Origin: Verrucomicrobia bacterium IMCC26134
GTDB lineage: Bacteria; Verrucomicrobiota; Verrucomicrobiia; Opitutales; Opitutaceae
Assembly: GCA_000972765.1 (NCBI GenBank)
Contig: CP011265.1
Span: forward strand, 124,001 to 188,000
Direction: 5' to 3'
DNA: 64,000 nucleotides
The notes beneath the pieces were generated by a model. The model was given only the letters and a program-made list of their open reading frames with translations, had not been told where the DNA came from and ran no database searches. This document shows, in pieces, positions 47,900-64,000 of the stretch (position 1 is its first letter; every line of letters starts with the position of its first letter). The position numbers were made by a program, and so were the translations under genes.

Positions 47900-48598
47900 G
47901 TGGCCACGTTTCCCTTATCACTAGTCGTCGTAATTCCAGTGTTTAATGAACACGAAGCGATTGAGTCGGTCTTGATCGAATGGAGGGCGGAGTTGAGCCA
48001 ACGGGTGCAAGCTTATCGCCTATTGGTCATAAACGATGGCTCCACAGATGCGACTTTAGAAAAACTTAGGGCCCTGACCTGGCCCGAGTTGGTAATTCAT
48101 ACGCACTCGAATCGTGGTCATGGTCAGAGTTGTCTAGCGGGCTACCGGATGGCTGCCGATATGGGGGCGGAGTATGTGTTCCAGATCGATTCCGATGGGC
48201 AATGTGAGCCATCCGCATTTAGGGCTGTTTGGGAGCAACGAGGTAAAACCGGAGCAGTTTATGGACGCCGGACTACCCGGGCCGACGGATGGTCGCGCTG
48301 GTTGGTGACACGGGTGTTGCGTTGGTTGCTTAAATTACTCCTGCGGACTGGATTAAATGACACAAACGTGCCCTATCGACTCTATTCCGCTTCAGTGGCG
48401 GCTGAGGCGTCGGCGAGTGTTTCACCCGCGTTTGAACTGGCTAATATAGCCATGGCCTTGGTGATGGAGCCGAAAGGTTTCATCGAGGTGCCTATTCATT
48501 TCCGAGACCGCATCGGCGGTCATCCGTCAGTAAAATGGTTTGGCTTTGCCAAGAAAGCAGTTCGTTTGCTGCGCGATTTAAAGACATTAAAAAAATGA
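47900..48598 (+). CDS. Family 2 glycosyltransferase
   Basis: This 232-residue GT-A enzyme starts at GTG. It has VVVIPVFNEHEAIESVL, the donor-site NDGSTDATL and QIDSDGQC with the metal-binding Asp-x-Asp. The R.G..S.KW.GFAKK stretch near the C-terminus resembles polyprenyl-phosphate glycosyl synthases. No membrane segment is visible. Its stop overlaps the start of glf (ATGA), and glf overlaps the next gene the same way, so this forms a tight operon for envelope sugar transfer. Donor and acceptor are unknown. Confidence 0.92.
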   Translation: MATFPLSLVVVIPVFNEHEAIESVLIEWRAELSQRVQAYRLLVINDGSTDATLEKLRALTWPELVIHTHSNRGHGQSCLAGYRMAADMGAEYVFQIDSDGQCEPSAFRAVWEQRGKTGAVYGRRTTRADGWSRWLVTRVLRWLLKLLLRTGLNDTNVPYRLYSASVAAEASASVSPAFELANIAMALVMEPKGFIEVPIHFRDRIGGHPSVKWFGFAKKAVRLLRDLKTLKK

Positions 48599-49728
48599 TA
48601 CCTGACTACGATTATCTGATCGTAGGGGCGGGCTTCGCCGGCATGGTTCTGGCCGAGCGCCTAGGCTCCGTGGGCAAACGGTGTCTGATCGTGGATAAGC
48701 GTGATCATATTGGAGGGAACTGTTACGATAGAAAAGACAATCACGGCATTCGCTATCATGTTTACGGCCCACACTATTTTCGCACCAACTCGACCAGTGT
48801 GCGGACTTATCTAAGTCGCTTTACGGAGTGGCGTGAAGTCAGCTACCGTGTTCGAGTATTCACAAAAGGAAAGCATTGGAGTTTCCCGGTTAATTTGCAG
48901 ACCTTTCGACAGCTCACTGATAATACTGAGGCTACGGAAGCAGACTTTAAAGCATATCTGGAGAAAAATGCGCAGAGTATAACCAATCCGGCTAACGCTA
49001 AGGAAGCAATACTGGCGGTCGTGGGTGAGGAATTATATAATCTCTTCTATGCGGGCTACACCGCCAAGCAATGGGGCCGACCGCCGGAACAGTTGGACGC
49101 GTCGGTTACCCGCCGCATACCGATCAGGACGAATGCGGACGACCGATATTTTCAAGACGAGTTCCAAGCGCTTCCGCGTGAAGGCTACACCAGCCTTTTC
49201 GAACGTATGCTGGAGGCATCGGGCGCGGAGTTATTGCTCAATACAGACTATAGATCGGTGCGCGCTAACGCTCATTTCGGGCATACGATATACACCGGCC
49301 CGCTGGATGAATACTTTGATTGCCGTTGGGGTACTTTGCCCTACAGGACCTTACGGTTTGAACTGGAAGAGCATTTAGCGGATCAAAACGGGTTTATACA
49401 ACCGGCGCTTCAAATCAACCACCCCGGTCCCGAATCTTTCACCCGCACGGTGGAGCTTAAACATATTACAGGGCAGCAAGGCTCATGGACGAATATAGTT
49501 CGCGAATTCCCATCCGAATATAAAGCAGGTCAGAGCGAGCCTTATTACCCCGTCCCGGGTGCGGATAGCCAGTCGTTGGCGCAGCGCTATCGGGATTTGG
49601 CCAATAAAGAGCTTGCGGTGACCTTTGTGGGACGGCTGGCAGAGTATCGTTATTTAAATATGGATCAGGTCGTGGGTGGAGCGCTGCATGTATTTGATAA
49701 AATGAACGTGGCGCGTAATACGGCATGA
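48595..49728 (+). CDS. glf: UDP-galactopyranose mutase
   Basis: This 377-residue flavoenzyme interconverts UDP-galactopyranose and UDP-galactofuranose. The N-terminal dinucleotide fold (DYLIVGAGFAGMVLAERL) and KRDHIGGNCYD bind FAD. Further on, HVYGPHYFRTNS, FPVNLQTFRQLT, AGYTAKQWGRPPEQLDASVTRRIPIR and YYPVP are family hallmarks. The start overlaps the previous gene's stop. Its presence argues that galactofuranose enters a surface polymer made by the neighbouring glycosyltransferases. Confidence 0.96.
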   Translation: MIPDYDYLIVGAGFAGMVLAERLGSVGKRCLIVDKRDHIGGNCYDRKDNHGIRYHVYGPHYFRTNSTSVRTYLSRFTEWREVSYRVRVFTKGKHWSFPVNLQTFRQLTDNTEATEADFKAYLEKNAQSITNPANAKEAILAVVGEELYNLFYAGYTAKQWGRPPEQLDASVTRRIPIRTNADDRYFQDEFQALPREGYTSLFERMLEASGAELLLNTDYRSVRANAHFGHTIYTGPLDEYFDCRWGTLPYRTLRFELEEHLADQNGFIQPALQINHPGPESFTRTVELKHITGQQGSWTNIVREFPSEYKAGQSEPYYPVPGADSQSLAQRYRDLANKELAVTFVGRLAEYRYLNMDQVVGGALHVFDKMNVARNTA

Positions 49729-51911
49729 AGACTTTAGACGCCAACGGAGCGGTCCCTCGCATAATCTGGATCATCGGGTGTTTGTTGCCCTTGGTATTTG
49801 GGGTATACCAAGCCACTGGATACCGCACCAACCTTGAGATTAAGTCGAGTGAGCTGGGTGTAACGGTTCGTGTAGATGACATGGAGGTGACTTGCCCCCT
49901 GAATCTAAAGGGACTGCAAAAAATAACGTTAACAGCTACACCCTCGTATTTTGAAACCGGTTGCGAGAAGTTGATATTAACTGGATCGAACGGAGGGGAG
50001 CAGAATCTGGCGGCACCAAGCAGGTTTAAATTCTCCCGCGTAAAGGTTGCGCTGACTGGCGATTGGTGGGTGGATCGAACTGAGGAGCAGGAAACTATTT
50101 TAATAAAAAAATGTGATATCGAGGGAAGCTTTTCGATCGCGGGCATATTCACCGGCAGGATACTCAAAGACTGCGAGATCCAACTGGAAGGAGACGCGGG
50201 GTGCCGGGTGTATTTCCGCGGTGGCACTCTTAATAATGATTTTGGGATTATTTTGGCGGACGGAAGTGTAGTTGCCGGACAATTAATCCCGCAGGAAAAC
50301 CGTGACCTTCTAAGAATGTCCCATTATGGCTTCGGGGCGTTGTTTGGGGCAGGGGTCCTTATCGTGGCATTCTCCTTGTTGCAAAGGATATATCCTCAAG
50401 GCCGTTCTGGTGATTATTCGCGCGTCGTCTGGGGGTGGGTGGCGTTTATTTCCTTGGCCATCGGGTTTGTATTTAGCTTGTGGATAGCCCGCTCAGTGCT
50501 TGATGCACGCCCGCATTTTCAAGACGACATGGGGTATTTATTGCGGGCAAAATGGCTTATGTCCGGCCGCTTAAGTCTCGATGTCCCCGAGCACGCGCAG
50601 CATTTTACGATACCGTTTACGTTTTTTGAAAATAACCGGTGGATCAGTCAATATACACTGGGTTGGCCTGCTTTGCTAGCGGTGGGGCAGGCGTTGGGAC
50701 TGGTTTGGATAGTGGGGCCGGTATGCGGTCTGGTCTTAGGCTACTTTACCTGGCAACTTGGGACGGAGGTCGGCGGCAAGCGGGTGGGCGCTCTCGCCGC
50801 CGCCTTGGGGGTATTGTCTCCCATGGCGCAGATTTTAGCCGGGAGTATGCTCGCGCACACCGCGTCTGCAATGTTATCCGCTTTGTTTCTATGGCTTTAT
50901 GTGACAGGCTGGAAAGATGAAAGCCGGTGGTGGGCTAGATTGGCGTGCGCTGGATTGGCATTGGGGTTTGCCCTTTCCATACGCCCGCTTTCCGCGCTTT
51001 CAGTTGCCATACCTTCCGCCCTGTATGGCTTGGCTGAAATGTGGCGTTTAAAGTTCGGTCACAGGGCCTGGACCGGGCTTCTGGCAGTTGTGATCGGTGG
51101 TTTGGCGGGATCGGTTCCTCAGTTTCTGGATAATTATTATATTACAGGCAACCCGCTGTTGTTTGCTTATACACTTGGCCCAAAGATTACTTGGTCTTGG
51201 GGTAATTATAGTGACGGTCTTTTTTTGGCGGATCACACGATGGCCTTGGTTCCCGATATGGCGTTCGGCTGGTTTTGGCCGTGGATCTCGGGCGGAAAAC
51301 TCGCTTTGCTTGGATTTAGCTTCGTTGTAATCGTATTTATAACTGGACGGGCCCAGCGTCTGGATTGGCTGCTTTTGGGCCTGTGCATAAGTTTTCCTGT
51401 TGCATATATGGGTTCGAATGCAGGCACCGGATTACATGGGTTTGGACCCCGTTATTATTCGGATGTCTTTTTTGCTTTGTTCATTTTGACCGCTAGAGGT
51501 GTCGTCGTGCTTGGCAATCTTTATGGCGGCGGGGGTATTAAGTGGCGGCCTTTAACGGCCCTTTTGATTATCCTGACCGCTTCAGCAGCGATAACGCTCC
51601 CCCAAAGAATGTCCTTATATCGCGGCTATAATGAAGCCGACGACCGGGTTGAGGAAATGTTAAGCAAGGCCGGAATCAAGCGGGGGCTGGTTTTGTTATC
51701 CGGTCCACGCCATATCATGTGGGTGCGGGCGGCTCGCTTGGTGCCGATGGATTCCAGGGCGGATCTGGTATTCGCTGAATCCTTGGCAGACAACCGTGCG
51801 ATCGTGGAAGCATATGCGGATCGGCCGATTTATGTTATAAGTGATGAAGGGGTTAAGCCATACGTAGCCCACGCAGAACCGTCACCCGCTCAAGCAACCA
51901 TCAATCGGTGA
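49725..51911 (+). CDS. GT-C-like membrane glycosyltransferase with N-terminal soluble domain
   Basis: This 728-residue protein starts four bases before the end of glf. A membrane segment (about residues 12-32) is followed by about 170 soluble, beta-rich residues, then many membrane segments from about 206 on. The loop after the first C-terminal-half helix has the Asp pair HFQDDMGYLLRAKWLMSGRL, as in GT-C/ArnT-like enzymes where acidic residues bind the lipid donor. A second region after residue 600 (GFGPRYYSDVFFALFIL) is typical too. The N-terminal soluble domain is unusual. Donor and acceptor are unknown. Confidence 0.8.
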   Translation: MKTLDANGAVPRIIWIIGCLLPLVFGVYQATGYRTNLEIKSSELGVTVRVDDMEVTCPLNLKGLQKITLTATPSYFETGCEKLILTGSNGGEQNLAAPSRFKFSRVKVALTGDWWVDRTEEQETILIKKCDIEGSFSIAGIFTGRILKDCEIQLEGDAGCRVYFRGGTLNNDFGIILADGSVVAGQLIPQENRDLLRMSHYGFGALFGAGVLIVAFSLLQRIYPQGRSGDYSRVVWGWVAFISLAIGFVFSLWIARSVLDARPHFQDDMGYLLRAKWLMSGRLSLDVPEHAQHFTIPFTFFENNRWISQYTLGWPALLAVGQALGLVWIVGPVCGLVLGYFTWQLGTEVGGKRVGALAAALGVLSPMAQILAGSMLAHTASAMLSALFLWLYVTGWKDESRWWARLACAGLALGFALSIRPLSALSVAIPSALYGLAEMWRLKFGHRAWTGLLAVVIGGLAGSVPQFLDNYYITGNPLLFAYTLGPKITWSWGNYSDGLFLADHTMALVPDMAFGWFWPWISGGKLALLGFSFVVIVFITGRAQRLDWLLLGLCISFPVAYMGSNAGTGLHGFGPRYYSDVFFALFILTARGVVVLGNLYGGGGIKWRPLTALLIILTASAAITLPQRMSLYRGYNEADDRVEEMLSKAGIKRGLVLLSGPRHIMWVRAARLVPMDSRADLVFAESLADNRAIVEAYADRPIYVISDEGVKPYVAHAEPSPAQATINR

Positions 51912-52001
51912 TGACTTTAGGAATCTTCAATGTAACGGTTCGTTTATGGTGGTTGGCCGCTTCATCTGGCGTCTACGCCCGAAGTCATATCGATTTGTAA
52001 A

Positions 52002-53165
52002 ATGAGTTCGTTTCCTGAAATCACGGTTGTGATCCCTTGCCTGAATGAGGAACTCACGGTGGTGGCGTGCGTGAAAGAGGCCTTGGAGGCGTTTCGAACC
52101 GGAAATTTAGCAGGGGAAGTGGTGGTTGCGGACAACGGCAGCACGGATGACTCTAGGGCTCTCGCATTGGAGGCCGGCGCCCGCGTGGTATGCGCTGAAA
52201 GACGCGGCTACGGGGCTGCGCTGATGGCTGGTATCGACGCGGCGGGCGGGCGTTTCGTGGTCATGGGCGATGCCGATGGCAGTTATGATTTCGGCGACAC
52301 GGTCAAATTCGTGGCGGCATTGCGAGGTGGCGCCGAACTGGTGCAGGGATGCCGGCTTCCGTCCGCTGGCGGCAAAATCGAGGAGGGTGCGATGCCTTGG
52401 TTGCATCGTCTGGTGGGGAATCCTGGTTTGACTTGGTTGGCTCGGCTGATGTTCCGAACGCCGGTGCACGATGTGTATTGCGGCCTGCGGGGTTTTAGCA
52501 AAGCCCGCTATGTCGCGATGGGGTTGCGATGCACCGGTATGGAATTCGCCACGGAGATGATCATCAAGGCTGCCTTGCATAACGTAATCACGGCGGAGGT
52601 CCCGGTAACGCTGCGAAGAGACGGGAGGGGAGGGCGGGCGCCGCATTTACGGACTTTTCGGGACGGATGGCGGACCTTGCGTTTGTTTCTATTGTTTAGT
52701 CCACGCTGGGTGCACGTCATCCCGGGAATGCTCTTGTCTGGTTTTGGTTTCCTCCTCGGCGTCCTGGCTTTGGTAAGTGCAAAGATTGGCCCTGCGACAC
52801 TCGGCCCGCACAGCCTGCTGGTTGCGTCCGCGGCGTTATTAGTGGGCAAGCAAGCACTCTGGATGGGTGTGTTTGCACGGACATTTGCCACCCTGGAGGG
52901 CATCGCACCGGTGAGTCCCGGCCTGGTGGTCTTCCGCCGTTATTTCACACTGGAACGTGTCATCGTGCTGGCGTTGCTCAGCATGGCCGCGGGGGTGGGG
53001 CTGGTCGCCGCTACTTTTCTGCATTGGCGAGGGCAGGGTTATGGACCGCTGGACTATGCCAAGACGCTGGTCTGGGTGGTGCCGGGCATCAGCTTGGTGG
53101 CACTCGGCGGTCAGGCGCTGATCGGCAGTTTTGCGCTTAGTTTGCTCACGCTGGAGCGAAAGTAA
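52002..53165 (+). CDS. Polyprenyl-phosphate glycosyltransferase-like GT2 with C-terminal membrane domain
   Basis: This 387-residue protein has an N-terminal GT-A domain (VVIPCLNEELTVV, ADNGSTDDSR, VMGDADGSYDF) like dolichyl-phosphate-type synthases, with the RRDGRGG region. The C-terminal half has about four membrane segments (starting HVIPGMLLSGFGFLLGVLALV). Such proteins make lipid-linked sugars on the cytoplasmic face of the membrane. It starts 90 bases after the GT-C gene and is the last of the plus-strand set, ending nine bases before the convergent methyltransferase gene. Confidence 0.9.
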   Translation: MSSFPEITVVIPCLNEELTVVACVKEALEAFRTGNLAGEVVVADNGSTDDSRALALEAGARVVCAERRGYGAALMAGIDAAGGRFVVMGDADGSYDFGDTVKFVAALRGGAELVQGCRLPSAGGKIEEGAMPWLHRLVGNPGLTWLARLMFRTPVHDVYCGLRGFSKARYVAMGLRCTGMEFATEMIIKAALHNVITAEVPVTLRRDGRGGRAPHLRTFRDGWRTLRLFLLFSPRWVHVIPGMLLSGFGFLLGVLALVSAKIGPATLGPHSLLVASAALLVGKQALWMGVFARTFATLEGIAPVSPGLVVFRRYFTLERVIVLALLSMAAGVGLVAATFLHWRGQGYGPLDYAKTLVWVVPGISLVALGGQALIGSFALSLLTLERK

Positions 53166-53174
53166 CATTCCGGC

Positions 53175-53872
53175 CTATCTAGGCCGGGCGACGCAGTGCC
53201 ATTTGCCCAACCGGAAGCGCGATATCTGCGGATCAAAACGCTGTTGGAACGCTTCCAGAATGAATTCGGAGGCGGATAACCAGGCGAAGCAGGTTTCGGC
53301 TTCGCGCTCGGTCATGACCGCTAATGCGTCAAGACGCGGCCAGCATGTCCTCAGTGTTTTGGAGCGCAGTGAAAGATGCACGAGATCGAGAAATGGTGTG
53401 CGCCATGGTTCGACGATCAGGAAGCACCCCCTGGACGCAGGACGCGGGCAACCTCCGCAAAAACGAGAGGCAGATCCGTTTGGAGCGCTGGTAGATGATG
53501 CGACCCGCCGTGGACGGCGATGATATCGCGCGACGCGGTCGGCAGCTTGATGTCGCGGCAGTCGCCGACATAAAGCTGTGTCGCCGGCCCCTGATAGGCC
53601 TCCAGCAGGCGTCGCGATAAATCGACTCCCGAAACCTTGGAGTAGCCGAGCTCGAACCAGACACGAAGTGCGTTTCCTCTCCCGCAAAAAATCTCCAGCA
53701 CAGATTGGTCACGGCTCCAGTCCCTAGCGCCCAATCCCGCGAGGCGCTTTGCGAACTTCAATCGCTCCACCTCGGCGGTTTCGAAGCGTTGGCAGGCCTT
53801 TTCCCAGTCCTCATCGCAACAAGCCAAGGGGGCACCACTCGATGATGGCTGGTTGGCCGGATATCCTGGCAT
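53175..53872 (-). pseudogene. Class I SAM-dependent methyltransferase with frameshift
   Basis: The first part (MPGYPANQPSSS...) carries SAM motifs VLEIFCGRGNALRVWFELG, GVDLSRR and VGDCRD, and reaches FAEVARVLRPGG, then hits TGA at 53417. Homology-like sequence continues in another frame (CFLIVEPWRTPFLDLVHL...RLGKWHCVARPR) to 53175. One extra base in the C5 run at 53427-53431 would restore a 232-residue protein. It is either a recent inactivating mutation, a phase-variable homopolymer or a sequencing error. It begins four bases after the DUF2298 gene on the same strand. Confidence 0.8.
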
Positions 53873-53875
53873 CGC

Positions 53876-56800
53876 TCATGGTGAAAAACCGGATACACGG
53901 TAAATCTGAACATCGTCGATGTCGTAGATTTTTTGGAAACCGAGCCGGCTGAACTTTTCGATTCCATCGGGTGTTCCGTAGATACGTTCCAGCCGGCCGA
54001 CAATAACGAGGCTTACACCGTAGCGGGCGATCAGGTTGCGGGTGAGTTCAACATCGGCGGTTCGGTAGATCGTTCGAACGTCGTCGATGCGCTGCTCGAC
54101 ATGGTTCTCCGCCAGTCCGGCCTGTTGCTGGCGTTGATGCCAGCTCCACCCCACAACCGAGGGGAGCCCGGTGTGCACGGCGTAACGCGAGCCCCAGCTG
54201 TAGAGCCGGTCTTTGGTGTTCATTTCCAGGATCACGGGCGATCCTTGAATGTTGTCCTGCAGCCAACGGATCGCCTTGAGATCGGGGGCAAGCGGGAAGC
54301 TGACCGACTCCATCGCATAGCCGGCCTTTTCCGCAAAGGCCAATCCATCTAGTGTGCGCGGCGTCTCCGCCATGCGGTCCCGGATCTTGGCGGGGGTGGC
54401 GGTCAGGGGGAAGAGCGCCGCCGCTCCGAGCAAAGCGATGAAAGCGCCCATCCACAGCCATCGGACACGGGGTGCTTCCACTCGCCAATGGGCCAACACC
54501 CCCGGCAGAGTAAGCGCGGAGGCAAGTCCGAACAAGACCCACACCTGGTAGTAAAATTTAAACACGGTGTTCATGCGTCCTATGTCACCGGCGAGCACTA
54601 CAAATTCGACGAGAAGCGAAAGGGTGAAGGCGACGAAGGTCAGCAATCCGGGCAAGGATTGAAGCGCGTCCTTGCGTCGCTGAATCACGACTGAAACTGA
54701 AAGTAGCAGGCCTGCCAGCAAGAGCGGTGTCAGGTGGCCGTTGAGCGCGGCGATGAGGCAGAGGGTGGCGAGTAATACAGTAAAAATCGCTCCAGCCCCG
54801 GCGGCGGGGCGGGTGAGGCCCAGTGTAATCAGACGGTGACGCGTCATCACGCGGCGACGTGCGACGAGGCTGCGGGCGATCCTTGTCCAAAGATGGAAGC
54901 CACGAGTAAATGGAATTTTCCCCTGCCTCCAGGCCGCGGCCACGCCGGATCCAAGCACGAAAAGGAAGAGACCGTGGATAAAAAGATAATCGCGCAGGCT
55001 CGTCCGGTTGCCGGTCCAGCTTTCGAAAGATCCGTAGCCCGCGACATAGGTTCGGTGGAAGGGCAGGAAGGCGAGGTAACCCGCCGCGATGATCACGCTG
55101 AAAATCCCGATGGATTTAATCAACGCCGAGCTGAAGGCGCGGGCGCCTGAGGTGTCGCGTTGCCACAGGCTAGTGAACAAAACCAAGCCGCTCAGCGCGC
55201 CATAAGTCGGCCAGTCCCAGGTGTTGGTCGGCCAGAAAAAACCCAGCGTCAGGGCGAGTAACGCGGCGAGCCCGACCTTGGTTTTTGAGTCCGTGACACG
55301 CGTCCATGCGGCCAGCAAAACAATCACGCAGAGCGTAAACGGAAGGGCCATGAGATGCGGATGCAGGTCGGCGTAAAGGAAACTCCAATACGGAAACTCG
55401 GTGACCGGCGCGATCTCGTCGCCGCTGATGGCACGGGCGGAAACCCAGTAGAGATCAGCCGTGTAGGCCGAAAGCCGTTCCCCGTGGCCGATGCGCCATA
55501 AACCATGGGTGGCGCGTATAAGGTCGGATACGAGCGGGAAGGTCAGCTCGTGGTCGGTCGCGCCGATACGGACCAGATTGTTCCAGATGAAGCGAAGCTG
55601 GAACAGATTCCCGAAAACCATCACGAAGGCCGTGGCCGACCAGGCGGCGAGCCATCCTCCGGTCGGCCGCAGGGCGCGGGCGGCGGACAGGGTTGCGGAG
55701 CAGGCGAGACCAAAAAATGTGGCGAGGCAGAGGTTGAAGCCAACCTCGGGCAGCACGGCCAGGCCCTTGATCAGCGTGCCGCAGAGAACGAACCCGAAGT
55801 AATAGTAATTGATAAAACCGCCCGCGAACCAGGCGTTGAGCGGCGGAAAATGCTCTGATTTCAGCACGCCGTTCAGGAAGGTCATTTCCATTGGCTTTTC
55901 CCCTCCCCACGACTCATGCCAGAGGTCGGGATTAGCGGAACGCACCCAAAGGAAAAAAACGAAACCGAGCCAGAAAACGCCTTCCACCCGCAGGACGGCG
56001 AAGCGGTTTTCATGCCGGCTCCACCAAGCCCGCCAGCCAGCTCTTGCGCGCCAGGAAATGGCGGCGGCGGCGAGGGCAAAAAGCCCGAAAATAATCCAGT
56101 AACCCGGACGATCATTCCGCATCATACCGGTGCTCGCCAGCAACCAGACCAGCCATGCGGGAATCAGAATCGCAAGGGGGCGGGCGAGCGCGCAGCCCCG
56201 GTCGGGCAACATGCGCAGCAACGGACCGAGCAGGCCCCAGCCGGCGAGTTGAAGAAGGAGCAGGTGTAACGACCAGACCACTACAGGATGACGGGCGGAG
56301 AAGGAGTCGCGATCAAACATCGCCGACCAGGTGCCTTCTTTTTGCACCTCTGCCCAGCGTTCAGGGGGGAGCAGAATGGCGGATTCGGGGCGCCCGGCCG
56401 GCTCGGCCCTGGCGGTATGCTTTCGCAGACTGCGCGGCTGGGGCTTCATCGGCTCGCGGGTGTCGGTGACCCCATCAAGGGGAATGGCGTTGAAGCGCTC
56501 CACCAGGGCCTGCGGATTGTAGCGCGCAGACTTTTTAAAGATACTTACGGGCGGGTGGTCATAGACGCTGAAGGCTTCCTCGGCTGAACGGGTAGAGATA
56601 GGCAGCCCGAGAAAATTGAGCTCGCGGGTGAATTCAGCCACCTTGTCGAAACCAAGCGTGCCGTCTTCAAGACCCTGGTAGTAGCTGATCGTAAACGGAT
56701 ACCGGTGCGGCATCCGCGGGATCGAGTCGCGTAGCTTTTGGCTGGCGAGAATAACGTAGTCCGCACGATTAAGTTTGGCGAGGAGCTGGCCGCGTTTCTC

Positions 56801-58261
56801 GCTATCGTCGGCGACGTAGTGTGCCAGTTCGATCTGGGTGTAGCGATCGGGGCTAAGCCCGCCGGTGCGAGGCAGGGGCAACCAGTCGTCCCAGTGTTCA
56901 CAGGCGAGCACGCTGCCTGCCGGGACGTGGTCGTAAATCCATTCCGAGGCTTCGATGCGCGTGTGTTTCCGGGTGTAGATCGAGACGAAGGCCAGCGCCC
57001 AGGCCAGGGTAAAAAGCACTGCCAATGTGGCCATGCCTTTTCCGGCCAGCGACAGGATGCGGGCGTCTTTGCGGGGTGCGGCAAGCCAGGACAAACCCCA
57101 GGCTGCCAGCACGCATAGGCTTCCATAAATCGGCAGGAAGTAGCGCAGGGTGCATTGATAGGTGAACCCCAGGTGGAAAAACACGATGGCCACCCACAAG
57201 GTCGGTATGGCGTGAGCCCAAACGCGTTGACGAAGGGTTTGCCAGCAGGCGCAGCTCCACGCGATCCAGGCCGTGAGACCAAGGCCAAGACCGAGACCCC
57301 AGGTGATTAAATTCCATCCCGGCCAAAGCAACGGGGTGCGTCCGTAAAACTGGCGGGTGAAAACATTGTCGGTCACGCCCGTGCTGATGGCGACAACCTC
57401 GCGCATGTTCGCCACCCAGCGCGGAGCAAGTTGCCACGGCCAAAAACCGGCGAAGGCGTCGGGCAGTGCCAAGCGCACGGTGATGATCGTCGCCAAGGAG
57501 AAAACCAAGGTGCGCACGAATGCCCGCTGCAGGACGGAGATCACGCCGCCTTCACGCACTCCAGCTGCAGGCAGAAGGGCGGTGATCGCGACTACGAGGC
57601 CGAAGGTGGCGACTGATATTTTACAGCTGATGGCCAGTCCGAGCGCGACTCCAGTGCAGGCGTAGTCGAGGAGTTTTTGACTTCGCCAGGCTCGCACCAG
57701 CAGGACGAGGGCGAGTCCGACGAAGAGGTTGGCGAAGGGATCGACGACGAAAAAATGAGCATGCTGGATGGGCACGACGGCCAGCGCGTAGAGCAACGCG
57801 GCCAGGAGGGCGGTGTTTGCCCGCCGGTAGAGCGACCAAGCCAGGGCGAATACCAGCGTGATCGTGGCGGTGTCGGCGATGGCCGAGAGGGCGCGACCGG
57901 TCATGGCCATTTGCTCGGGGGTTTTGATGCCGCCGAGCACCATGACCCCGCGCAATGCTGTTCCGGGCAATGTTCCGTAAGCGTAAAAAGTCGCCTCGCG
58001 ATTGCGCGGGTTGAGCGGAGATTTCGACTCGTCCAAATACTCCGCCACCGAGTGAGGCCAATCCAGCCGCCAGGTGCACATCATGATGTGGCGTTCGTCC
58101 GGGTGCTGGCCGCCGGATTGATCCCAGTTGAGACCGAAGAGCCGGAAGGCCAGGCCGAGGCCGAGCACTGCCAGCAAGAGCCAGCGGGTCCGGGACGAGA
58201 GCGAGGGAGCCAGGCCTGGCTCGGGTGCGGAAGGAGTGTCCGATGTGGATGCGTGTGTCAT
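53876..58261 (-). CDS. Giant GT-C (PMT-like) / DUF2298 fusion membrane protein
   Basis: This 1461-residue protein is almost entirely membrane-embedded. Residues about 25-600 resemble a GT-C glycosyltransferase of the PMT/ArnT type, with the acidic loop WDQSGGQHPDERH and later QHAHFFVVDPFANLFVGLAL. Residues about 690-1450 match DUF2298, also called YYY membrane protein: GGFINYYYFGF, FPYWSFLYADLHPHLMALPF and TNTWDWPTYG. Such tandem fusions are known but without an established reaction. It lies in the same transcript direction as DprE1/DprE2-like genes and may use the lipid-linked arabinose they predict; this is an inference. Confidence 0.85.
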   Translation of the reverse strand: MTHASTSDTPSAPEPGLAPSLSSRTRWLLLAVLGLGLAFRLFGLNWDQSGGQHPDERHIMMCTWRLDWPHSVAEYLDESKSPLNPRNREATFYAYGTLPGTALRGVMVLGGIKTPEQMAMTGRALSAIADTATITLVFALAWSLYRRANTALLAALLYALAVVPIQHAHFFVVDPFANLFVGLALVLLVRAWRSQKLLDYACTGVALGLAISCKISVATFGLVVAITALLPAAGVREGGVISVLQRAFVRTLVFSLATIITVRLALPDAFAGFWPWQLAPRWVANMREVVAISTGVTDNVFTRQFYGRTPLLWPGWNLITWGLGLGLGLTAWIAWSCACWQTLRQRVWAHAIPTLWVAIVFFHLGFTYQCTLRYFLPIYGSLCVLAAWGLSWLAAPRKDARILSLAGKGMATLAVLFTLAWALAFVSIYTRKHTRIEASEWIYDHVPAGSVLACEHWDDWLPLPRTGGLSPDRYTQIELAHYVADDSEKRGQLLAKLNRADYVILASQKLRDSIPRMPHRYPFTISYYQGLEDGTLGFDKVAEFTRELNFLGLPISTRSAEEAFSVYDHPPVSIFKKSARYNPQALVERFNAIPLDGVTDTREPMKPQPRSLRKHTARAEPAGRPESAILLPPERWAEVQKEGTWSAMFDRDSFSARHPVVVWSLHLLLLQLAGWGLLGPLLRMLPDRGCALARPLAILIPAWLVWLLASTGMMRNDRPGYWIIFGLFALAAAAISWRARAGWRAWWSRHENRFAVLRVEGVFWLGFVFFLWVRSANPDLWHESWGGEKPMEMTFLNGVLKSEHFPPLNAWFAGGFINYYYFGFVLCGTLIKGLAVLPEVGFNLCLATFFGLACSATLSAARALRPTGGWLAAWSATAFVMVFGNLFQLRFIWNNLVRIGATDHELTFPLVSDLIRATHGLWRIGHGERLSAYTADLYWVSARAISGDEIAPVTEFPYWSFLYADLHPHLMALPFTLCVIVLLAAWTRVTDSKTKVGLAALLALTLGFFWPTNTWDWPTYGALSGLVLFTSLWQRDTSGARAFSSALIKSIGIFSVIIAAGYLAFLPFHRTYVAGYGSFESWTGNRTSLRDYLFIHGLFLFVLGSGVAAAWRQGKIPFTRGFHLWTRIARSLVARRRVMTRHRLITLGLTRPAAGAGAIFTVLLATLCLIAALNGHLTPLLLAGLLLSVSVVIQRRKDALQSLPGLLTFVAFTLSLLVEFVVLAGDIGRMNTVFKFYYQVWVLFGLASALTLPGVLAHWRVEAPRVRWLWMGAFIALLGAAALFPLTATPAKIRDRMAETPRTLDGLAFAEKAGYAMESVSFPLAPDLKAIRWLQDNIQGSPVILEMNTKDRLYSWGSRYAVHTGLPSVVGWSWHQRQQQAGLAENHVEQRIDDVRTIYRTADVELTRNLIARYGVSLVIVGRLERIYGTPDGIEKFSRLGFQKIYDIDDVQIYRVSGFSP

Positions 58262-58274
58262 GCCTGTTTGGTCA

Positions 58275-59009
58275 TCAGGCTTGGAGGCGCTTTACGATTT
58301 GGCGAGGCAGCAGGCGGATGAGGAACATGATCACGCGCCAGTGTCCGGGACTGTAGATCGTCGCCGAGCGCCTGCGTATGGCGGCAGAGATATCGGCGGC
58401 GACTTTCTCCGGCGTGGTGAAGAGCGCGGTTTTGGCCAGAAGAGCCGTCATGGGTGAATCCACCGGGCCCGGCTTGACGAGCAAGACCTGCACGGCGGGC
58501 AAGAGACGCTGGCGGAGGCCCTCGCAAAAGGTGTCGAGCGCGGCCTTGCTAGCGCCATAGATGTAGTTCGACCTGCGCCCGCGATCGCCCGCGACCGAGC
58601 CGATGATCACGCAGGAGCCTGCCCGACGGCTTTCAAAGCGCTTCGCCACAAATAGCGCCGCTTGCATGACTTCGATGGTGTTCACTTGCATGACCTCGGC
58701 GGTCAGCCGCGCATCGTTTTCGCAGGCGGCGTGGTCGGGCAGGGTTCCTTGGGCGGCGAGAAAAACATCAAAAGCCTGGAGAGCGCGGAAGCCGTCCCCG
58801 AGCGCGGCTTCCAGTCCGGCGTAGTCGCCGTTAACGCAGGTGCGAACCGTCGCCGAGGCCGCGCCTCGGGTGAGGAGATCCGCCGCCACGGCATCCAGCC
58901 TGGACTGGTTCCTGCCGATCAACCAAAAGCGTGTGTCTTCGCCGGCGTGCATCCGGCAGTAGGCCTGGGCAATGGCCGAGGTGGCGCCGAGTATAAGATG
59001 GTTTTTCAT
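58275..59009 (-). CDS. dprE2: DprE2-like SDR (keto-sugar reductase)
   Basis: This 244-residue SDR starts at MKNHLILGATSAIAQAYCRMH, overlapping the DprE1-like stop (ATGA). The Rossmann motif is GATSAIAQ, the catalytic set Ser in IIGSVAGDRGRRSNYIYGASKAAL with Tyr-x-x-x-Lys. A C-terminal hydrophobic stretch (HWRVIMFLIRLLP) fits membrane association. DprE2 completes the C2' epimerisation of polyprenylphosphoryl ribose by reducing the keto intermediate made by DprE1. The pairing makes the assignment strong; the exact lipid is unknown. Confidence 0.88.
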   Translation of the reverse strand: MKNHLILGATSAIAQAYCRMHAGEDTRFWLIGRNQSRLDAVAADLLTRGAASATVRTCVNGDYAGLEAALGDGFRALQAFDVFLAAQGTLPDHAACENDARLTAEVMQVNTIEVMQAALFVAKRFESRRAGSCVIIGSVAGDRGRRSNYIYGASKAALDTFCEGLRQRLLPAVQVLLVKPGPVDSPMTALLAKTALFTTPEKVAADISAAIRRRSATIYSPGHWRVIMFLIRLLPRQIVKRLQA

Positions 59010-60322
59010 GCGGTAAGGCCGGTTCGCCGGCTGAAGGTGGAGGCGCAGCGCGGATCGATGAAGGACTTGAACTCGGCGTGGCGGGGGTATGAGCGCTCGA
59101 AGGCATCGCGGCTCATTCGGTAGTCTTTTGCAGGATACAATGCTCCTTTGCAGGCGAAGACGGTGCGGTCCAGATCGTCGAGCAACCGATCGGTTGCCGC
59201 GCCCAGATTGGGTAGATCGAAGCAAATGGTGGCTCCCGGCCGGGGGAAGGAGAGGAGGCCGGGCGATTCGACTGCGCCGAAGAGTTTTACCACGGTCAGG
59301 AATGACGCCTGGCGCGCGGATTGAACCTTGCCAAGCGTCTCTCGCAGGGCCTCCGGCCCGGATTCCAAGGGAACGACGAATTGATATTGGATCAAGCCCT
59401 TGCGTCCGTAGGCGAGATTCCAGTCCGCCACGGCGTCGAGCGGGTAGAAAAAGCCATTGTAGGGAACGTCGCGTTGCGCGTTGCGCGAGGCGTTGGCCAG
59501 GTAGTAACCCGTATTGAGCAGGCGGAGGCTCCATGCGTTTACCATGTGATCAGGAAGCTCCCGCGGTATCTTGAACCGGGGCTGGGGATGGACTCCGGCG
59601 GACAACGGGCCATCGTCCTCGACGTGGTTGCCGGCGATGAAGAGCCCGCGCGGCGCGCCCCGGTGGGTGGCATCGAGCCAGGCCACCGAGTATTCGAAGG
59701 CGGCCTCTTGCCGGCGGGCTACTTCAAAGAACGCATCGAAACCGTGCAACGGCTCCAGTTGCTGCCGGATGAGGGGGGAACGAATCCCGCGGAGTTGCAG
59801 CTCCACCCAAAGGATCACTCCGGTCAGGCCCAGGCCCCCGATGGTGGCGCGGAAGAGGCCGGTGTTTTCCGCTGGGGAACACACCCGCACCGTGCCATCG
59901 GAGCGGCGCAGGCCGATGCGGCGCACGAAGCATCCGAAGGTGCCGGCGCGGTGATGGTTTTTGCCATGCACGTCGTTGGCCACACAGCCGCCGACGGTGA
60001 CGAATTTCGTCCCCGGGGTGACGGGGATAAACCACCCGCGCGGCACGCAAAACTCCAGCAGTTGCGCAAGGCTGCAACCGGCTTCGCAGACGAGTAGGCC
60101 GGTTTTCTTATCGAAGGAAATCAGCCGGTTAAGCTGCCGGGTTTCCACCAGAAAACCGTGGTCGAGCAGGCAAGAGTCGCCGTAGCTTCTCCCCAGTCCA
60201 TAGGGCAGAAACGGGACTTCCCCGGCGGGTAACGCATCGTCCATCCAGGCCAGATTCGCACTGCGGGTTCCGCTCGAGGCCCGTCTGCCCCATGAGTAAA
60301 AGGTTTTGACGGGTGCGGACAT
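59006..60322 (-). CDS. dprE1: DprE1-like FAD-dependent polyprenylphosphoryl-ribose oxidase
   Basis: This 438-residue protein has an FAD-binding PCMH domain with PYGLGRSYGDSCL, TPGTKFVTVGGCVANDVHGKNHH and GTFGCFVRRIGLRRSDG, then an ALO-like C-terminal domain. It matches DprE1, which oxidises the C2' hydroxyl of polyprenylphosphoryl-ribose. A conserved late segment has Lys in YPAKDYRM. It starts next to the HAD-UbiA gene (gap of zero bases) and overlaps the DprE2-like gene, giving the complete three-enzyme route to polyprenylphosphoryl-arabinose. Confidence 0.9.
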   Translation of the reverse strand: MSAPVKTFYSWGRRASSGTRSANLAWMDDALPAGEVPFLPYGLGRSYGDSCLLDHGFLVETRQLNRLISFDKKTGLLVCEAGCSLAQLLEFCVPRGWFIPVTPGTKFVTVGGCVANDVHGKNHHRAGTFGCFVRRIGLRRSDGTVRVCSPAENTGLFRATIGGLGLTGVILWVELQLRGIRSPLIRQQLEPLHGFDAFFEVARRQEAAFEYSVAWLDATHRGAPRGLFIAGNHVEDDGPLSAGVHPQPRFKIPRELPDHMVNAWSLRLLNTGYYLANASRNAQRDVPYNGFFYPLDAVADWNLAYGRKGLIQYQFVVPLESGPEALRETLGKVQSARQASFLTVVKLFGAVESPGLLSFPRPGATICFDLPNLGAATDRLLDDLDRTVFACKGALYPAKDYRMSRDAFERSYPRHAEFKSFIDPRCASTFSRRTGLTA

Positions 60323-61771
60323 TTAAATCGGTTTCGCCGCCGTGGCGGCGAGCACGCAAAGCAGTGCAAGCGCCCATGTCACCCAATCCCGCGCGGCGAA
60401 CCACACCGGGTCGTCATGCATCGTTTTTCGTCCGGCCAAAAACCAGACTCGCATGATCCAGAGCATGAGGATGAGCGCGATCAACCAAAGCCAGTGCGGG
60501 GAGGCATAGAGGGCTTTGCTCGCCGAGCTGTCCAGGTAGAGGGCCAGCACCACCACGGATAGGAAACCAGATGCGATGCCTACCGTAAGGACGAAGCCCA
60601 GATCGGATCGACTGTAGCCTCGGCGCGCGAGGGCGTCGTCTCCATCCTCAGGCAGGTAAGAGAGCTCTATGTAACGTTTCAGGAAGGCCAGCCCGAGGAA
60701 AAAAGTGGTCGAAAAAGCCAGCAGCCACGGCGATATCCACACCATGCCGGCTACTCCGCCGAGCAACATACGGTAGGTGTAGAGGCCCGATAAAAAAATG
60801 CCGTCGAATACGGGCGCGGTTTTCACGACCAAAGTGTAAAACAGTGAGAGCGCGTAGTAGCCTGCGATAACCGGCAAGGCCGCCGGGCTTGAAAAGGTTG
60901 CCAACGCCATGCCGGTCAGGAAAAGGATCATCGCCGTCACCAGCCCGGCCGGGATCGACCAAGCGCCGCTGGCGAAGGGGCGGCCCCGTTTGCGGGGATG
61001 GGCTCGATCCGCGTCCAGATCCGCGAGGTCGTTCAACAGATAGGACGACGAGGCGAGGCAGCAAACCGCCAAAAACACCGGCATGGTCTGTTGCCAGCAG
61101 TTCCAATCTGACCAGCGGTGGGCGGCGCAGAGCGGAAAAAAGACCAGCAAGTTCTTTAACCATTGATGCGGCCGCAGGGCTTTGAGGGCCAGCGCGCCGG
61201 CGCAGGCTGGCGAGGGGGCGACGGCGGCGAGGGGCTTGCCCAACCGGGCCGCCAGCGTGGCGCGGCGTGACTCGGTCCCGACGAACCACGCATTTCGAGC
61301 GGACCGCCAGACCGGCAGATCCGCCGCGCAGTCGCCGATGTAGTCGAATCCTTCGGCTCCAAATTCCGCGACCAATCGCTTCGCTTTGCGCGCGCCCTTG
61401 AGATTGTCGCCGGCTTCGCTGCCAAAAACCTCGCTGATGAACGGCAGGTGTCGCGTCACCTTTTGCGCGGCCTCCCGGTCGGCGGCGCTGGCCAGCACGA
61501 CCCGGCCTCCGCCGTCTCTCCAGGTTTTGCAAAAATGCAGGACTTCCTCGTTCCACATCAAGCGTTCACCTGACAACGCCGTCGCTGCGGCGACCCGCGA
61601 CTTTAAAAAAGGCCGCCCGCCCTTCACCAACCAGCCCAACGCGGGAATGATCCGCCAGAAACGCGGAAATAGAAATCTCGTGAGGCCTTCCCAAAAAAGA
61701 TCCCCGCGCAGCAGTGTCCCGTCGAGATCAACGGCCAGAACCTCGCCGACTTTTTCATGGCTGGGTTTCAT
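60323..61771 (-). CDS. HAD phosphatase - UbiA prenyltransferase fusion (DPPR synthase type)
   Basis: This 482-residue fusion has an N-terminal HAD domain (about residues 1-185) with VDLDGTLL, the Ser/Thr motif ASAADREAA and the Asp motif IGDCAADLPVW. The C-terminal UbiA domain has the prenyl-pyrophosphate Asp motif NDLADLDADRAHPRKRGRP, matching DPPR synthase, and about eight membrane segments. DPPR synthase joins phosphoribosyl-pyrophosphate to polyprenyl phosphate; the HAD part could remove the 5-phosphate of the product. This is an inference from the fusion. It precedes the DprE1/DprE2 pair. Confidence 0.88.
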   Translation of the reverse strand: MKPSHEKVGEVLAVDLDGTLLRGDLFWEGLTRFLFPRFWRIIPALGWLVKGGRPFLKSRVAAATALSGERLMWNEEVLHFCKTWRDGGGRVVLASAADREAAQKVTRHLPFISEVFGSEAGDNLKGARKAKRLVAEFGAEGFDYIGDCAADLPVWRSARNAWFVGTESRRATLAARLGKPLAAVAPSPACAGALALKALRPHQWLKNLLVFFPLCAAHRWSDWNCWQQTMPVFLAVCCLASSSYLLNDLADLDADRAHPRKRGRPFASGAWSIPAGLVTAMILFLTGMALATFSSPAALPVIAGYYALSLFYTLVVKTAPVFDGIFLSGLYTYRMLLGGVAGMVWISPWLLAFSTTFFLGLAFLKRYIELSYLPEDGDDALARRGYSRSDLGFVLTVGIASGFLSVVVLALYLDSSASKALYASPHWLWLIALILMLWIMRVWFLAGRKTMHDDPVWFAARDWVTWALALLCVLAATAAKPI

Positions 61772-61786: not shown

Positions 61787-62743
61787 TCAGGCGTTCCGGT
61801 TCGGCGAGGGGGCGCCTGCCTGCTTGATTTCATCGCGGATGATATAAAGTGGCCGCCCTTTTGATTCCAAAAACAAGCGCCCCAGATACTCGCCGATGAT
61901 GCCGATCAGCAGGGTCTGGACGCCGCCGGTCACAAGTATGACGATGATCAGTCCGCTGTTATCGGAACCGGCTGGCTGGCCCAGGCGGGCGATTAAGATA
62001 TAAAGCAGCAAGGCCAGTGCGCTGAAGAAGAAGATGAAGCTGGTCCAAAAGGCGATGCGAAGCGGCCGCACCGAAAAACCGGCGATGGCGTCCACCGAGA
62101 GTTTCACGAGCTTTTGGAAATTGTAGTTGGTCTGGCCGGTTTTCCTGGGTTGGCGGTCGTATAAAAGCCCGGTTTGCGGGAAACCGATCCAGCTAATCAT
62201 GCCGCGGAAAAAGCGACCGGATTCCGGCAGGGCCAGAAACGCATCCACCACCCGTCGAGTCATCAACCGGAAATCGCCCGTATCTTCGGGTATCGGGTTG
62301 TCGGTCAGTATATTAAAGACGCGATAAAACAGTTTTGCCGATATCAGTTTGAGCCAGGACTCGCCGGCGCGCGAGCGTCTCACGCCATAGACGACGTCAT
62401 AGCCTTCTGCCATCTTGGCCCGCAAGGCCGGCAGCAACTCGGGCGGGTCTTGTAAATCGGCATCCAAGATAAGCACCTGCTCGCCAAGTGATTTTCTCAT
62501 TCCCGCCGACGAGGCGGCTTCGTGGCCAAAGTTGCGCGAGAATCGCAGTCCCTTCACCTCGGCGATCCTTTCGCCGATCTTGCAGATGATCGCCCACGAC
62601 AGATCGGTCGAACCATCGTCGACGATGATTATTTCATGAGCAAGACCGAGCTCACGGCATAAACAATGGACCCGGGTGATCGCCTTCTCCAGCCCCTCCG
62701 CTTCGTTGTAGCAGGGAACGATGATTGAGAGTTCGGGGTTCAT
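61787..62743 (-). CDS. Polyprenyl-phosphate sugar synthase, GtrB/DPM-like GT2
   Basis: This 318-residue protein has a GT-A domain (SIIVPCYNEAEGLEKAI, VDDGSTDLSW, LRFSRNFGHEAA, LDADLQDPPELLP) and two C-terminal membrane segments with a RP.YIIRDE tail. It fits GtrB-type enzymes that make polyprenyl-phosphate glucose or mannose. The stretch RKTGQTNYNFQKLVKL is family-conserved. It lies 16 bases upstream of the HAD-UbiA gene in the same direction, so it probably shares the transcript and supplies a lipid-linked donor. Confidence 0.93.
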   Translation of the reverse strand: MNPELSIIVPCYNEAEGLEKAITRVHCLCRELGLAHEIIIVDDGSTDLSWAIICKIGERIAEVKGLRFSRNFGHEAASSAGMRKSLGEQVLILDADLQDPPELLPALRAKMAEGYDVVYGVRRSRAGESWLKLISAKLFYRVFNILTDNPIPEDTGDFRLMTRRVVDAFLALPESGRFFRGMISWIGFPQTGLLYDRQPRKTGQTNYNFQKLVKLSVDAIAGFSVRPLRIAFWTSFIFFFSALALLLYILIARLGQPAGSDNSGLIIVILVTGGVQTLLIGIIGEYLGRLFLESKGRPLYIIRDEIKQAGAPSPNRNA

Positions 62744-62767: not shown

Positions 62768-64000
62768 TTAGCGCAGCTCGGAGCGACGCCAGTAACCGAC
62801 CCTTTTACCCTCCGGCGTGGTGTAGGCGTCGCGCCATATATAATAGTCGTTAAGGAACACGTTCATTCGCGCCCATAATTCATTGGTGTCGGCCGTTTGA
62901 TACCAGAGAATGTAATCAATTTTTTCAGCGGCGGGCCAGACCATGATGCCGTCGATATAGCCATTATACAAGGCTTCCACCTTTTCCATGCGCTGGTTGA
63001 TGGGTTGGGCATAGCCGTGCCAGAGCAGTTCGTGGCCGACCCAGCCCAGCCACATTTGTTTGCCGGCGAAGAGCGGCACCACTGCGGAGTTGGTGAAGGA
63101 ATTGGGGTTGGGGCGCTCGATCGCTATCCCCGTCGGCTCCAGAGTCAGTTGATCCAGCAGGTGCCGGGTGGATTCATCCCTGCGCAAATAGGCGTCCCCT
63201 TGGAGTTTAGCGAAATTAATTTTGGGCGTAAGCCACCAGTATCTGGCGAGTTGGACGCCAAAAACACAGGGGTAGGCACAGGCGATCGCGGCGCATACCC
63301 GCACCCACTTTCGGCTTGCACGCTCGATCAGCACAGGACCGAGCATCATGAGCGTGGCAGCGGCAATCCAGGGCCACCATTTCAGGGTGGTGTTGAAGCG
63401 CTCGGTATCGCCGGAGTAAATGTCGTCTATAAAAGTAAATTCCGAAAGCCCGAGATAGGCGAGGGTGAGCACGGCGAGCCAGAGGCAGAGTTTGTTCCTA
63501 GCGTAAAAGCCGAGCGAGCCGAGCGCGAGGGTAGGCAGGAGGAAAAGAATATAGAGAAGCAGCGGACTGTGGAGCTCCCACGGCACCAGCTTCAGGGAGG
63601 TGGCATAGCTGCCGGCGGCGCCGGTGAAGGCGGTGAGATAGACCGCCGCCGCGAGCCAGACCGCCGCCGCCCCCACGGCGAGTGAGCCGATGATCGCAGC
63701 CCAGTTTTTTCGCTCCCATAGCACCCATCCCGCAATCCAGATAGCTTGCAGCGGAAGGGTCCAGGTATTGGAGAGCAAGGTCCAAGTCAGGGTGGCGCCC
63801 ACGAGAGCGGCATAACGTTTCTTTTTTGTGCGACTGTATAAAACCGCCGCCAAGGCGCCCAAGCCGAGCAGACAATAGCCGGAGTAGGGCGGATGGTAAT
63901 CGCCGAGAAAGGCGGTGTAGGCGAAGGATTCACCTGCGAGGTCCTGCCGGGTATGCTGGCTGGCGTATTCCTGCATCATGGTGCCGACCGGCGCCTTGTC
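62768..64000 (-). CDS. DUF2298-like membrane protein, N-terminus outside the window
   Basis: The frame is open to the right edge (DKAPVGTMMQEYASQ...), so the N-terminus is missing. The visible 410 residues have about nine membrane segments and resemble the C-terminal part of DUF2298 proteins: GDYHPPYSGYCLLGLGA and LLSNTWTLPLQAIW parallel ADLHPHLMALPF and TNTWDWPTYG of the larger fusion gene. A soluble C-terminal domain holds WLGWVGHELLWHGYAQPINQR, also like the larger protein's WSWHQRQQQAG region. It is upstream of the GT2 gene (24-base gap). The family is likely but divergent. Confidence 0.7.
   Translation of the reverse strand, partial: DKAPVGTMMQEYASQHTRQDLAGESFAYTAFLGDYHPPYSGYCLLGLGALAAVLYSRTKKKRYAALVGATLTWTLLSNTWTLPLQAIWIAGWVLWERKNWAAIIGSLAVGAAAVWLAAAVYLTAFTGAAGSYATSLKLVPWELHSPLLLYILFLLPTLALGSLGFYARNKLCLWLAVLTLAYLGLSEFTFIDDIYSGDTERFNTTLKWWPWIAAATLMMLGPVLIERASRKWVRVCAAIACAYPCVFGVQLARYWWLTPKINFAKLQGDAYLRRDESTRHLLDQLTLEPTGIAIERPNPNSFTNSAVVPLFAGKQMWLGWVGHELLWHGYAQPINQRMEKVEALYNGYIDGIMVWPAAEKIDYILWYQTADTNELWARMNVFLNDYYIWRDAYTTPEGKRVGYWRRSELR

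Follow-up and report, generated by a model that had tools for sequence, protein, structure and literature searches.

Lipid-linked D-arabinose is most familiar from the cell wall of the tuberculosis bacterium. The closest described counterparts of the locus discussed here are the decaprenylphosphoryl-arabinose (DPA) pathway of mycobacteria (Rv3806c, Rv3807c, DprE1, DprE2, Rv3789 and Emb) and the pentofuranose systems of Citrobacter. Rv3789 is a GtrA-type protein. It has also been called a member of the SMR family (PMC11127046). The ORF15 protein of Citrobacter youngae, a HAD-UbiA fusion of the same kind as the one described below, makes farnesyl-phosphoryl-ribose from phosphoribosyl pyrophosphate (PRPP) (PMC11127046, 2024). 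Its HAD nucleophile is D18, and a mutant in the HAD aspartate yields the 5-phosphate plus a little dephosphorylated product (PMC11127046). In the survey of the same paper, DprE1 and DprE2 homologues accompany arabinofuranose glycans, and noeCHO of the Azorhizobium noeCHOP genes have been proposed to make a D-arabinose precursor (PMC2443382). The present locus, from Verrucomicrobia bacterium IMCC26134, joins a HAD-UbiA fusion to homologues of DprE1 and DprE2. It was found in a window of 64,000 nucleotides (bases 124001-188000 of a 4.0-Mb single-contig genome) and lies near the end of that window.

Positions 58275-61771 of the minus strand are filled exactly by the genes for the HAD-UbiA fusion, the DprE1 homologue and the DprE2 homologue. 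The earlier note on this DNA, made from its letters alone, had reported adjacent homologues of a UbiA-type decaprenyl-phosphate phosphoribosyltransferase (DPPR synthase), DprE1 and DprE2, with a HAD phosphatase fused to UbiA, and family scores and PDB relatives confirm this. The identity of the three genes, their residues, their operon layout and their conservation can be read directly from the data. For substrates, direction and final glycan the homologues serve as the guide. Since the catalytic motifs are conserved, the trio should make polyprenyl-phosphoryl-D-arabinofuranose, and we put the probability that it makes the beta-D form from PRPP at about 0.87. The UbiA domain would transfer 5-phosphoribose from PRPP to polyprenyl phosphate, and the fused HAD domain would strip the 5-phosphate. 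The FAD enzyme DprE1 would then oxidise C2 of the polyprenyl-phosphoryl-ribose and DprE2, with NAD(P)H, would reduce C2 from the other face to give the arabino epimer. Once flipped, the arabinose donor would serve GT-C enzymes outside the cytoplasmic membrane, and the likeliest of these are the operon's own DUF2298 proteins.

The fusion matches NCBIfam NF006088 with 543 bits (cut-off 351), residues 8-479 covering profile positions 10-479 of 482, and it shows the full-length HAD-UbiA architecture of the PRP-PPPRS fusions of the ORF15 type. Its Pfam matches to UbiA (65 bits) and HAD (32 bits) are both above cut-off. For the UbiA half, the best solved relative is the DPPR synthase 8j8j (E 1.3e-22), and three DPPR synthase models score 101-133 bits against 19-40 bits for the other UbiA models listed. 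D15, D17, N247, D248, D251, D255, R366 and E369 are all present, giving both the HAD nucleophile and the N/D/D/D set of UbiA. In an alignment of 27 fusions, taken from the window plus 26 loci (L023 duplicates the window and L054 is cut short), D15 and D17 of HAD and the four UbiA residues N247, D248, D251 and D255 never vary. Each of the 26 rows that have a letter at position 366 shows Arg there, and one of them (L011) has Ala for E369. The proposal, already made in the earlier note, that the HAD part would remove the 5-phosphate of polyprenyl phosphoribose is supported by these motifs and by the ORF15 Asp mutant (PMC11127046). A relative of UbiA type, 29.8% identical over residues 197-426 of the query, also occurs at 5045-5731 of MT837543.1, a 6.6-kb record named 'Bacteriophage sp.' that comes from human faecal samples and carries no annotation.

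The product of the second gene scores 321 bits with the DprE1 model NF053785 and 42 bits with the next family, sugar 1,4-lactone oxidase. DprE1 accounts for each of its nine best distinct sequences in the PDB (E 2e-66 to 6e-63), and the match after these is at 1.4e-10. By score, therefore, the protein does not group with other sugar oxidases, which the earlier note had named as an outcome that would speak against its proposal. The genome holds a single DprE1 match of this strength (E 1.7e-95), two others reaching only 2.4e-10 and 1.3e-9. Identity with the M. tuberculosis core is 35.6% over 391 columns. The active-site residues H132, K134, Q336, K367 and K418 are all identical, as is F369. Twelve of the 14 inhibitor-contact sites listed in PMC6128881 agree with M. 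tuberculosis, as do 14 in a second set of 16 sites. A DprE1 tree, with six of 24 inner branches fully supported, is unrooted and shows only the spread among DprE1 homologues. A GlcD-like protein of the same genome was too distant to serve as outgroup (branch 10), and sugar 1,4-lactone oxidases, sought for the same use, were above cut-off in none of 96 genomes.

Of the 24 non-actinobacterial rows, three retain the cysteine with which benzothiazinones react, Cys387: the window, an Opitutia bacterium metagenome-assembled genome (MAG; locus L008) and G045, a genome from the same family as the window. The remaining 21 have Ala. In M. avium, natural resistance to benzothiazinones is attributed to an Ala at this position (PMC3206020), and DprE1 activity does not need Cys387 (PMC6128881). 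The cysteine offers a possible chemical probe of this DprE1 outside mycobacteria.

The third product is a short-chain dehydrogenase/reductase (SDR) with Y151xxxK155, and it scores 231 bits with NF005489 (cut-off 267). The DprE2 gene lies within 0.5 kb of DprE1 in all 18 loci read from the window's phylum (22 genomes have a DprE1 match, of which four were not read) and in all five plasmid loci read. In the window the ATG of DprE2 overlaps the stop of DprE1 (ATGA), and the trio is the centre of a block of six genes: small DUF2298 protein, GT2, HAD-UbiA, DprE1, DprE2 and a 1461-amino acid (aa) PMT+DUF2298 protein. As the intergenic gaps are only 24, 15, 0, -4 and 13 nt in this order, the block reads as one operon. 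The gene order is identical in L008 and G045, with identities to the window (L008/G045) of 54.4/54.2, 73.8/69.0, 60.3/49.1, 69.8/60.6, 59.3/51.9 and 70.1/65.1% for the six proteins. In all six the window is closer to the MAG, which belongs to the Verrucomicrobiota class Opitutia, than to G045, and the placement of the pathway 'outside Actinobacteria' in the earlier note is very probably right.

Among 288 genomes drawn from the window's phylum, the full-length fusion is found in 21 and DprE1 (E 1e-40 or better) in 22; 22 genomes pass the fusion cut-off, G157 having UbiA only, and G008, whose match is partial and broken, is not counted. Twelve genomes have both, nine the fusion only and ten DprE1 only, and two of the last (G023 and G237) have a free-standing UbiA beside DprE1. 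Since the two sampled genomes of the window's genus (G085 and G257) lack both, the distribution is patchy. The 22 genomes with a DprE1 homologue would place lipid-linked D-arabinofuranose synthesis in another phylum. Of the nine genomes with a full-length fusion and no DprE1 match, four were read (G220, G140, G119 and G134; loci L048, L049, L050 and L051), and their fusions perhaps make ribose or xylose donors.

Plasmids carry the same genes. Of 72,556 plasmid records, 64 have a DprE1 homologue and 83 a relative of HAD-UbiA or UbiA, 80 of these over at least 80% of the query; among the matches listed (40 of the 64 and 40 of the 83), at least 18 records have both, no more than 1.7 kb apart. Loci from Burkholderia, Rhizobium and Salipiger, three of the five read, hold the fusion, DprE1 and DprE2 with GtrA in or near the operon. 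The Granulicella locus has its UbiA gene apart and the Flammeovirgaceae plasmid a free-standing UbiA with DprE1 and DprE2, GtrA being annotated in neither. The novelty implied by the earlier note does not hold, as DprE1 and DprE2 homologues and the fusion have already been published outside Actinobacteria and occur on many plasmids. The trio and fusion are of a known kind, and the link to DUF2298 and the absent flippase are the less ordinary part. A search for literature on DprE1 or D-arabinose in Verrucomicrobia, judged partly by title or the start of the abstract, found none, which is no proof of absence.

Several observations weigh against the synthesis of an arabinose donor by the trio. 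The DprE1 score of 321 bits is below the NCBI equivalog cut-off of 500, which no genome of the 288 passes, and for this reason the protein is called a DprE1 homologue. The DprE2 homologue scores 155 bits with the DprE2 model NF053786 (cut-off 250). Relative to M. tuberculosis DprE1, N385 is Thr (a site in both sets), S228 is Val (among the inhibitor contacts) and Y314 is Phe (in the second set). Motif III and motif IV positions of HAD differ from one relative to another (R, T, S or A in place of K; D147 is mostly N). DprE1 is without a match at E 1e-40 in nine of the 21 genomes that carry the full-length fusion, and the fusion is therefore no sign of arabinose by itself. Finally, the genome has no GtrA and no SMR protein, and its sole MatE match is weak (34 bits, in a 555-aa frame at G000:C1:1812305-1812790) and about 1.6 Mb away; we take this protein to be perhaps MurJ.

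Those nine genomes also make ribose plausible as the fusion's own end product, with the oxidase-reductase pair acting elsewhere, or the pair might act on polyprenyl-phosphoryl-ribose to give another pentofuranose such as xylo; in Citrobacter O2, xylose is made via another epimerase (PMC11127046). However, that xylose system has a single GalE-like SDR and no DprE1/DprE2 pair, whereas here DprE1 and DprE2 are paired in 18 of 18 loci and the DprE1 sites agree at 14 of 16 and 12 of 14 positions. Either reading is improbable. Still less credible is a chance neighbourhood, in which a UbiA enzyme for quinones or lipids, its HAD domain a stray addition, would lie beside an SDR and a sugar oxidase of general type. 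UbiA, HAD, FAD_binding_4 and SDR are all large families, and the genome carries two other UbiA proteins, but the NF006088 match is full-length, the DPPR synthase and DprE1 models stand far above their competitors in score, and the same trio order recurs in two relatives and on the Burkholderia plasmid. The preferred reading is thus the synthesis of the arabinose donor, by which D-arabinofuranose may be present in the envelope, as the earlier note proposed; a protein glycan or an exopolysaccharide is equally possible.

The earlier note had called the pathway 'complete'. This stands for donor synthesis, but the flippase families GtrA and SMR are missing from the genome and the transfer enzyme is only a candidate. 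No MATE, GtrA or SMR match was found among the block proteins, and the flippase of the three-component system is thus not recognised there. GtrA is present in 19 of the 22 DprE1 genomes. The three without it are the window's own (G000), G045 and G254, and these same three are the ones with a DUF2298 gene next to HAD-UbiA or to the block around it. G274, a genome of the same class, has a GtrA gene between DprE1 and DprE2. The absence of the known flippase families from the genome suggests a lipid-sugar flippase of unrecognised type. Emb arabinosyltransferase (PF04602) was found in none of the 22 DprE1-bearing genomes, the window's own included, with C. glutamicum positive as control.

The candidates for the transfer step are the two DUF2298 proteins. 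The 1461-aa protein is above cut-off with PF02366 and PF13231, scores 325 bits with PF10060 and 511 with TIGR03662, and contains YYYxG, which we take to be the mark of the TIGR03662/PF10060 family (Chlor_Arch_YYY, DUF2298). The small protein, read in L058, scores 73 bits with PF10060, above cut-off, and 69 with TIGR03662, below it; its relatives adjoin the block or sit in it in L008, G045 and G254. Neither half of the 1461-aa protein had a credible match when the PDB was searched by profile. Structure predictions of the halves (two sequences each) reached a mean pLDDT (predicted local distance difference test) of 37.6 and 36.7 and were not used, and kinship of the two halves is not claimed, the profile comparison giving a probability of 0.9%.

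TIGR03662 occurs in ten of the 288 genomes, and all ten have DprE1 (Fisher p 7e-13, a value that treats related genomes as independent). At family level, the four families with TIGR03662 are all among the eight of 61 with DprE1 (p 1.3e-4; 61 is the highest family number printed, taken as the total). All ten encode both a large DUF2298 protein and a small one, the latter under the TIGR03662 cut-off; in G148 one copy sits where a contig ends, and unread bases fall in the stretch that carries the other. Seven of the ten, G148 and six members of a single family, have their DUF2298 genes at a distance from DprE1 or on separate contigs, and in G254, too, DprE1 and DUF2298 are on different contigs. 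Co-occurrence of genes that lie apart speaks for a link of function and not of position alone, although independent cases are few and the link was observed within one phylum only.

Whether the DUF2298 proteins are GT-C arabinofuranosyltransferases using the arabinose donor may be put at about even odds with their use of a hexose donor made by the GT2 of the block (61787-62743). The hexose alternative, at slightly under one chance in two, would assign arabinosyl transfer to a different gene, perhaps 49725-51911 or a PMT-like gene of the sort that follows the block in G045. The GT2 (Pfam GT2 104 bits; NF047588 241 bits, cut-off 500) is kept in the block like the trio. Two findings tell against an arabinose donor at this step and favour a hexose: the archaeal controls Haloferax and Methanosarcina have TIGR03662 without DprE1 at E 1e-40, and the DUF2298 half is without a relative at E 1e-8 on any of the 72,556 plasmids, although DprE1 is on 64 of them. 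On the other side, a hexose donor leaves the presence of DprE1 in ten of ten TIGR03662 genomes, with the genes apart in seven, unexplained, and in G254 the small DUF2298 gene adjoins HAD-UbiA without a GT2. With arabinose as donor, DUF2298/TIGR03662 would gain a concrete candidate function to test, D-arabinofuranosyltransfer; no function for the family was given in the sources consulted, and of two papers that mention DUF2298 neither concerns glycosylation, judging by title.

A wider proposal is that in Verrucomicrobiota the DUF2298/TIGR03662 proteins are D-arabinofuranosyltransferases, of which a two-headed GT-C (PMT and DUF2298 halves) and a single-headed partner build a surface glycan from polyprenyl-phosphoryl-arabinofuranose without a known flippase or Emb-type enzyme; as a whole this is doubtful. 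If true, the polymer of Opitutia may also carry galactofuranose, UDP-galactopyranose mutase (Glf) being encoded nearby, as a convergent Gram-negative counterpart of arabinogalactan, and benzothiazinones would be able to switch the glycan off through the Cys conserved at their site. Glf is not enriched with DprE1 (7 of 22 genomes against 56 of 266, p 0.18) and weakly so with TIGR03662 (6 of 10 against 57 of 278, p 0.009). Its membership of the arabinose system is uncertain, and the likeness to arabinogalactan is speculation.

Table 1. Coordinates of the genes of the block and of Glf in the window
Feature	Positions	Strand	Description	Basis
HAD-UbiA fusion	60323..61771	-	482 aa; HAD residues ~8-155, putative UbiA-type polyprenyl-phosphate 5-phosphoribosyltransferase ~186-482	NF006088, Pfam HAD and UbiA, 8j8j
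DprE1 homologue (putative FAD polyprenylphosphoryl-ribose 2-oxidase)	59006..60322	-	438 aa	NF053785, PDB DprE1, active-site residues
DprE2 homologue (putative SDR keto-reductase)	58275..59009	-	244 aa	NF053786, NF005489, YxxxK
PMT+DUF2298 membrane protein	53876..58261	-	1461 aa; PMT-like half N-terminal, DUF2298/TIGR03662 half C-terminal; starts 13 nt after DprE2	
GT2, polyprenyl-phosphate sugar synthase-like (PgfS/ArnC type)	61787..62743	-	two C-terminal hydrophobic segments	Pfam GT2, NF047588
Small DUF2298 protein	62768..64000	-	cut by the window end; ~768 nt more to about 64768, read in L058	
UDP-galactopyranose mutase (Glf)	48535..49728	+		TIGR00031 345 bits, over cut-off

Beyond the block, 53175-53872 of the minus strand holds an S-adenosylmethionine methyltransferase split over two frames, with a Methyltransf_11 match in 53417-53872 and a plausible continuation in the other frame at 53175-53687; this is a broken gene or a sequence error. 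The divergent neighbours at 47900-53165 on the plus strand encode a GT2, the mutase, a 728-aa membrane protein with a PMT_2 match below threshold, and a second GT2, this one with some six hydrophobic segments. Of these neighbours, the mutase and the first GT2 are again found next to the block in G045, with Glf 3.7 kb from it. In G045 the 1461-aa gene is followed (L035:8537-12189) by a PMT_2-type gene and one for a 536-aa protein without a Pfam match; the former has a 49%-identical counterpart after the block in L008, and none at that place in the window.

With the mycobacterial DPA pathway the locus has the UbiA, DprE1 and DprE2 steps in common, but in place of the phosphatase Rv3807c there is an unrelated HAD domain, and no counterpart of Rv3789 or Emb was found in this genome (GtrA 0, SMR 0, PF04602 0). 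With the PRP-PPPRS fusion ORF15 of C. youngae O1 (PMC11127046) it shares the N-terminal HAD phosphatase on a UbiA phosphoribosyltransferase, and by coincidence the corresponding residues even bear the same numbers (N247, D248, D251, D255, R366 and E369). It differs from the three-component pentofuranose system of Citrobacter in that DprE1 and DprE2 follow the fusion, no flippase gene is recognised in the block, and the candidate GT-C enzymes are PMT/DUF2298 proteins by their Pfam matches, where that system has a GT-C of family GT136. The alphaproteobacterial and Burkholderia plasmid clusters have HAD-UbiA, DprE1 and DprE2 together, as here. In those clusters, however, GtrA is in or near the operon in three of the five loci read and there is no DUF2298 relative, whereas in the present locus the reverse is the case.

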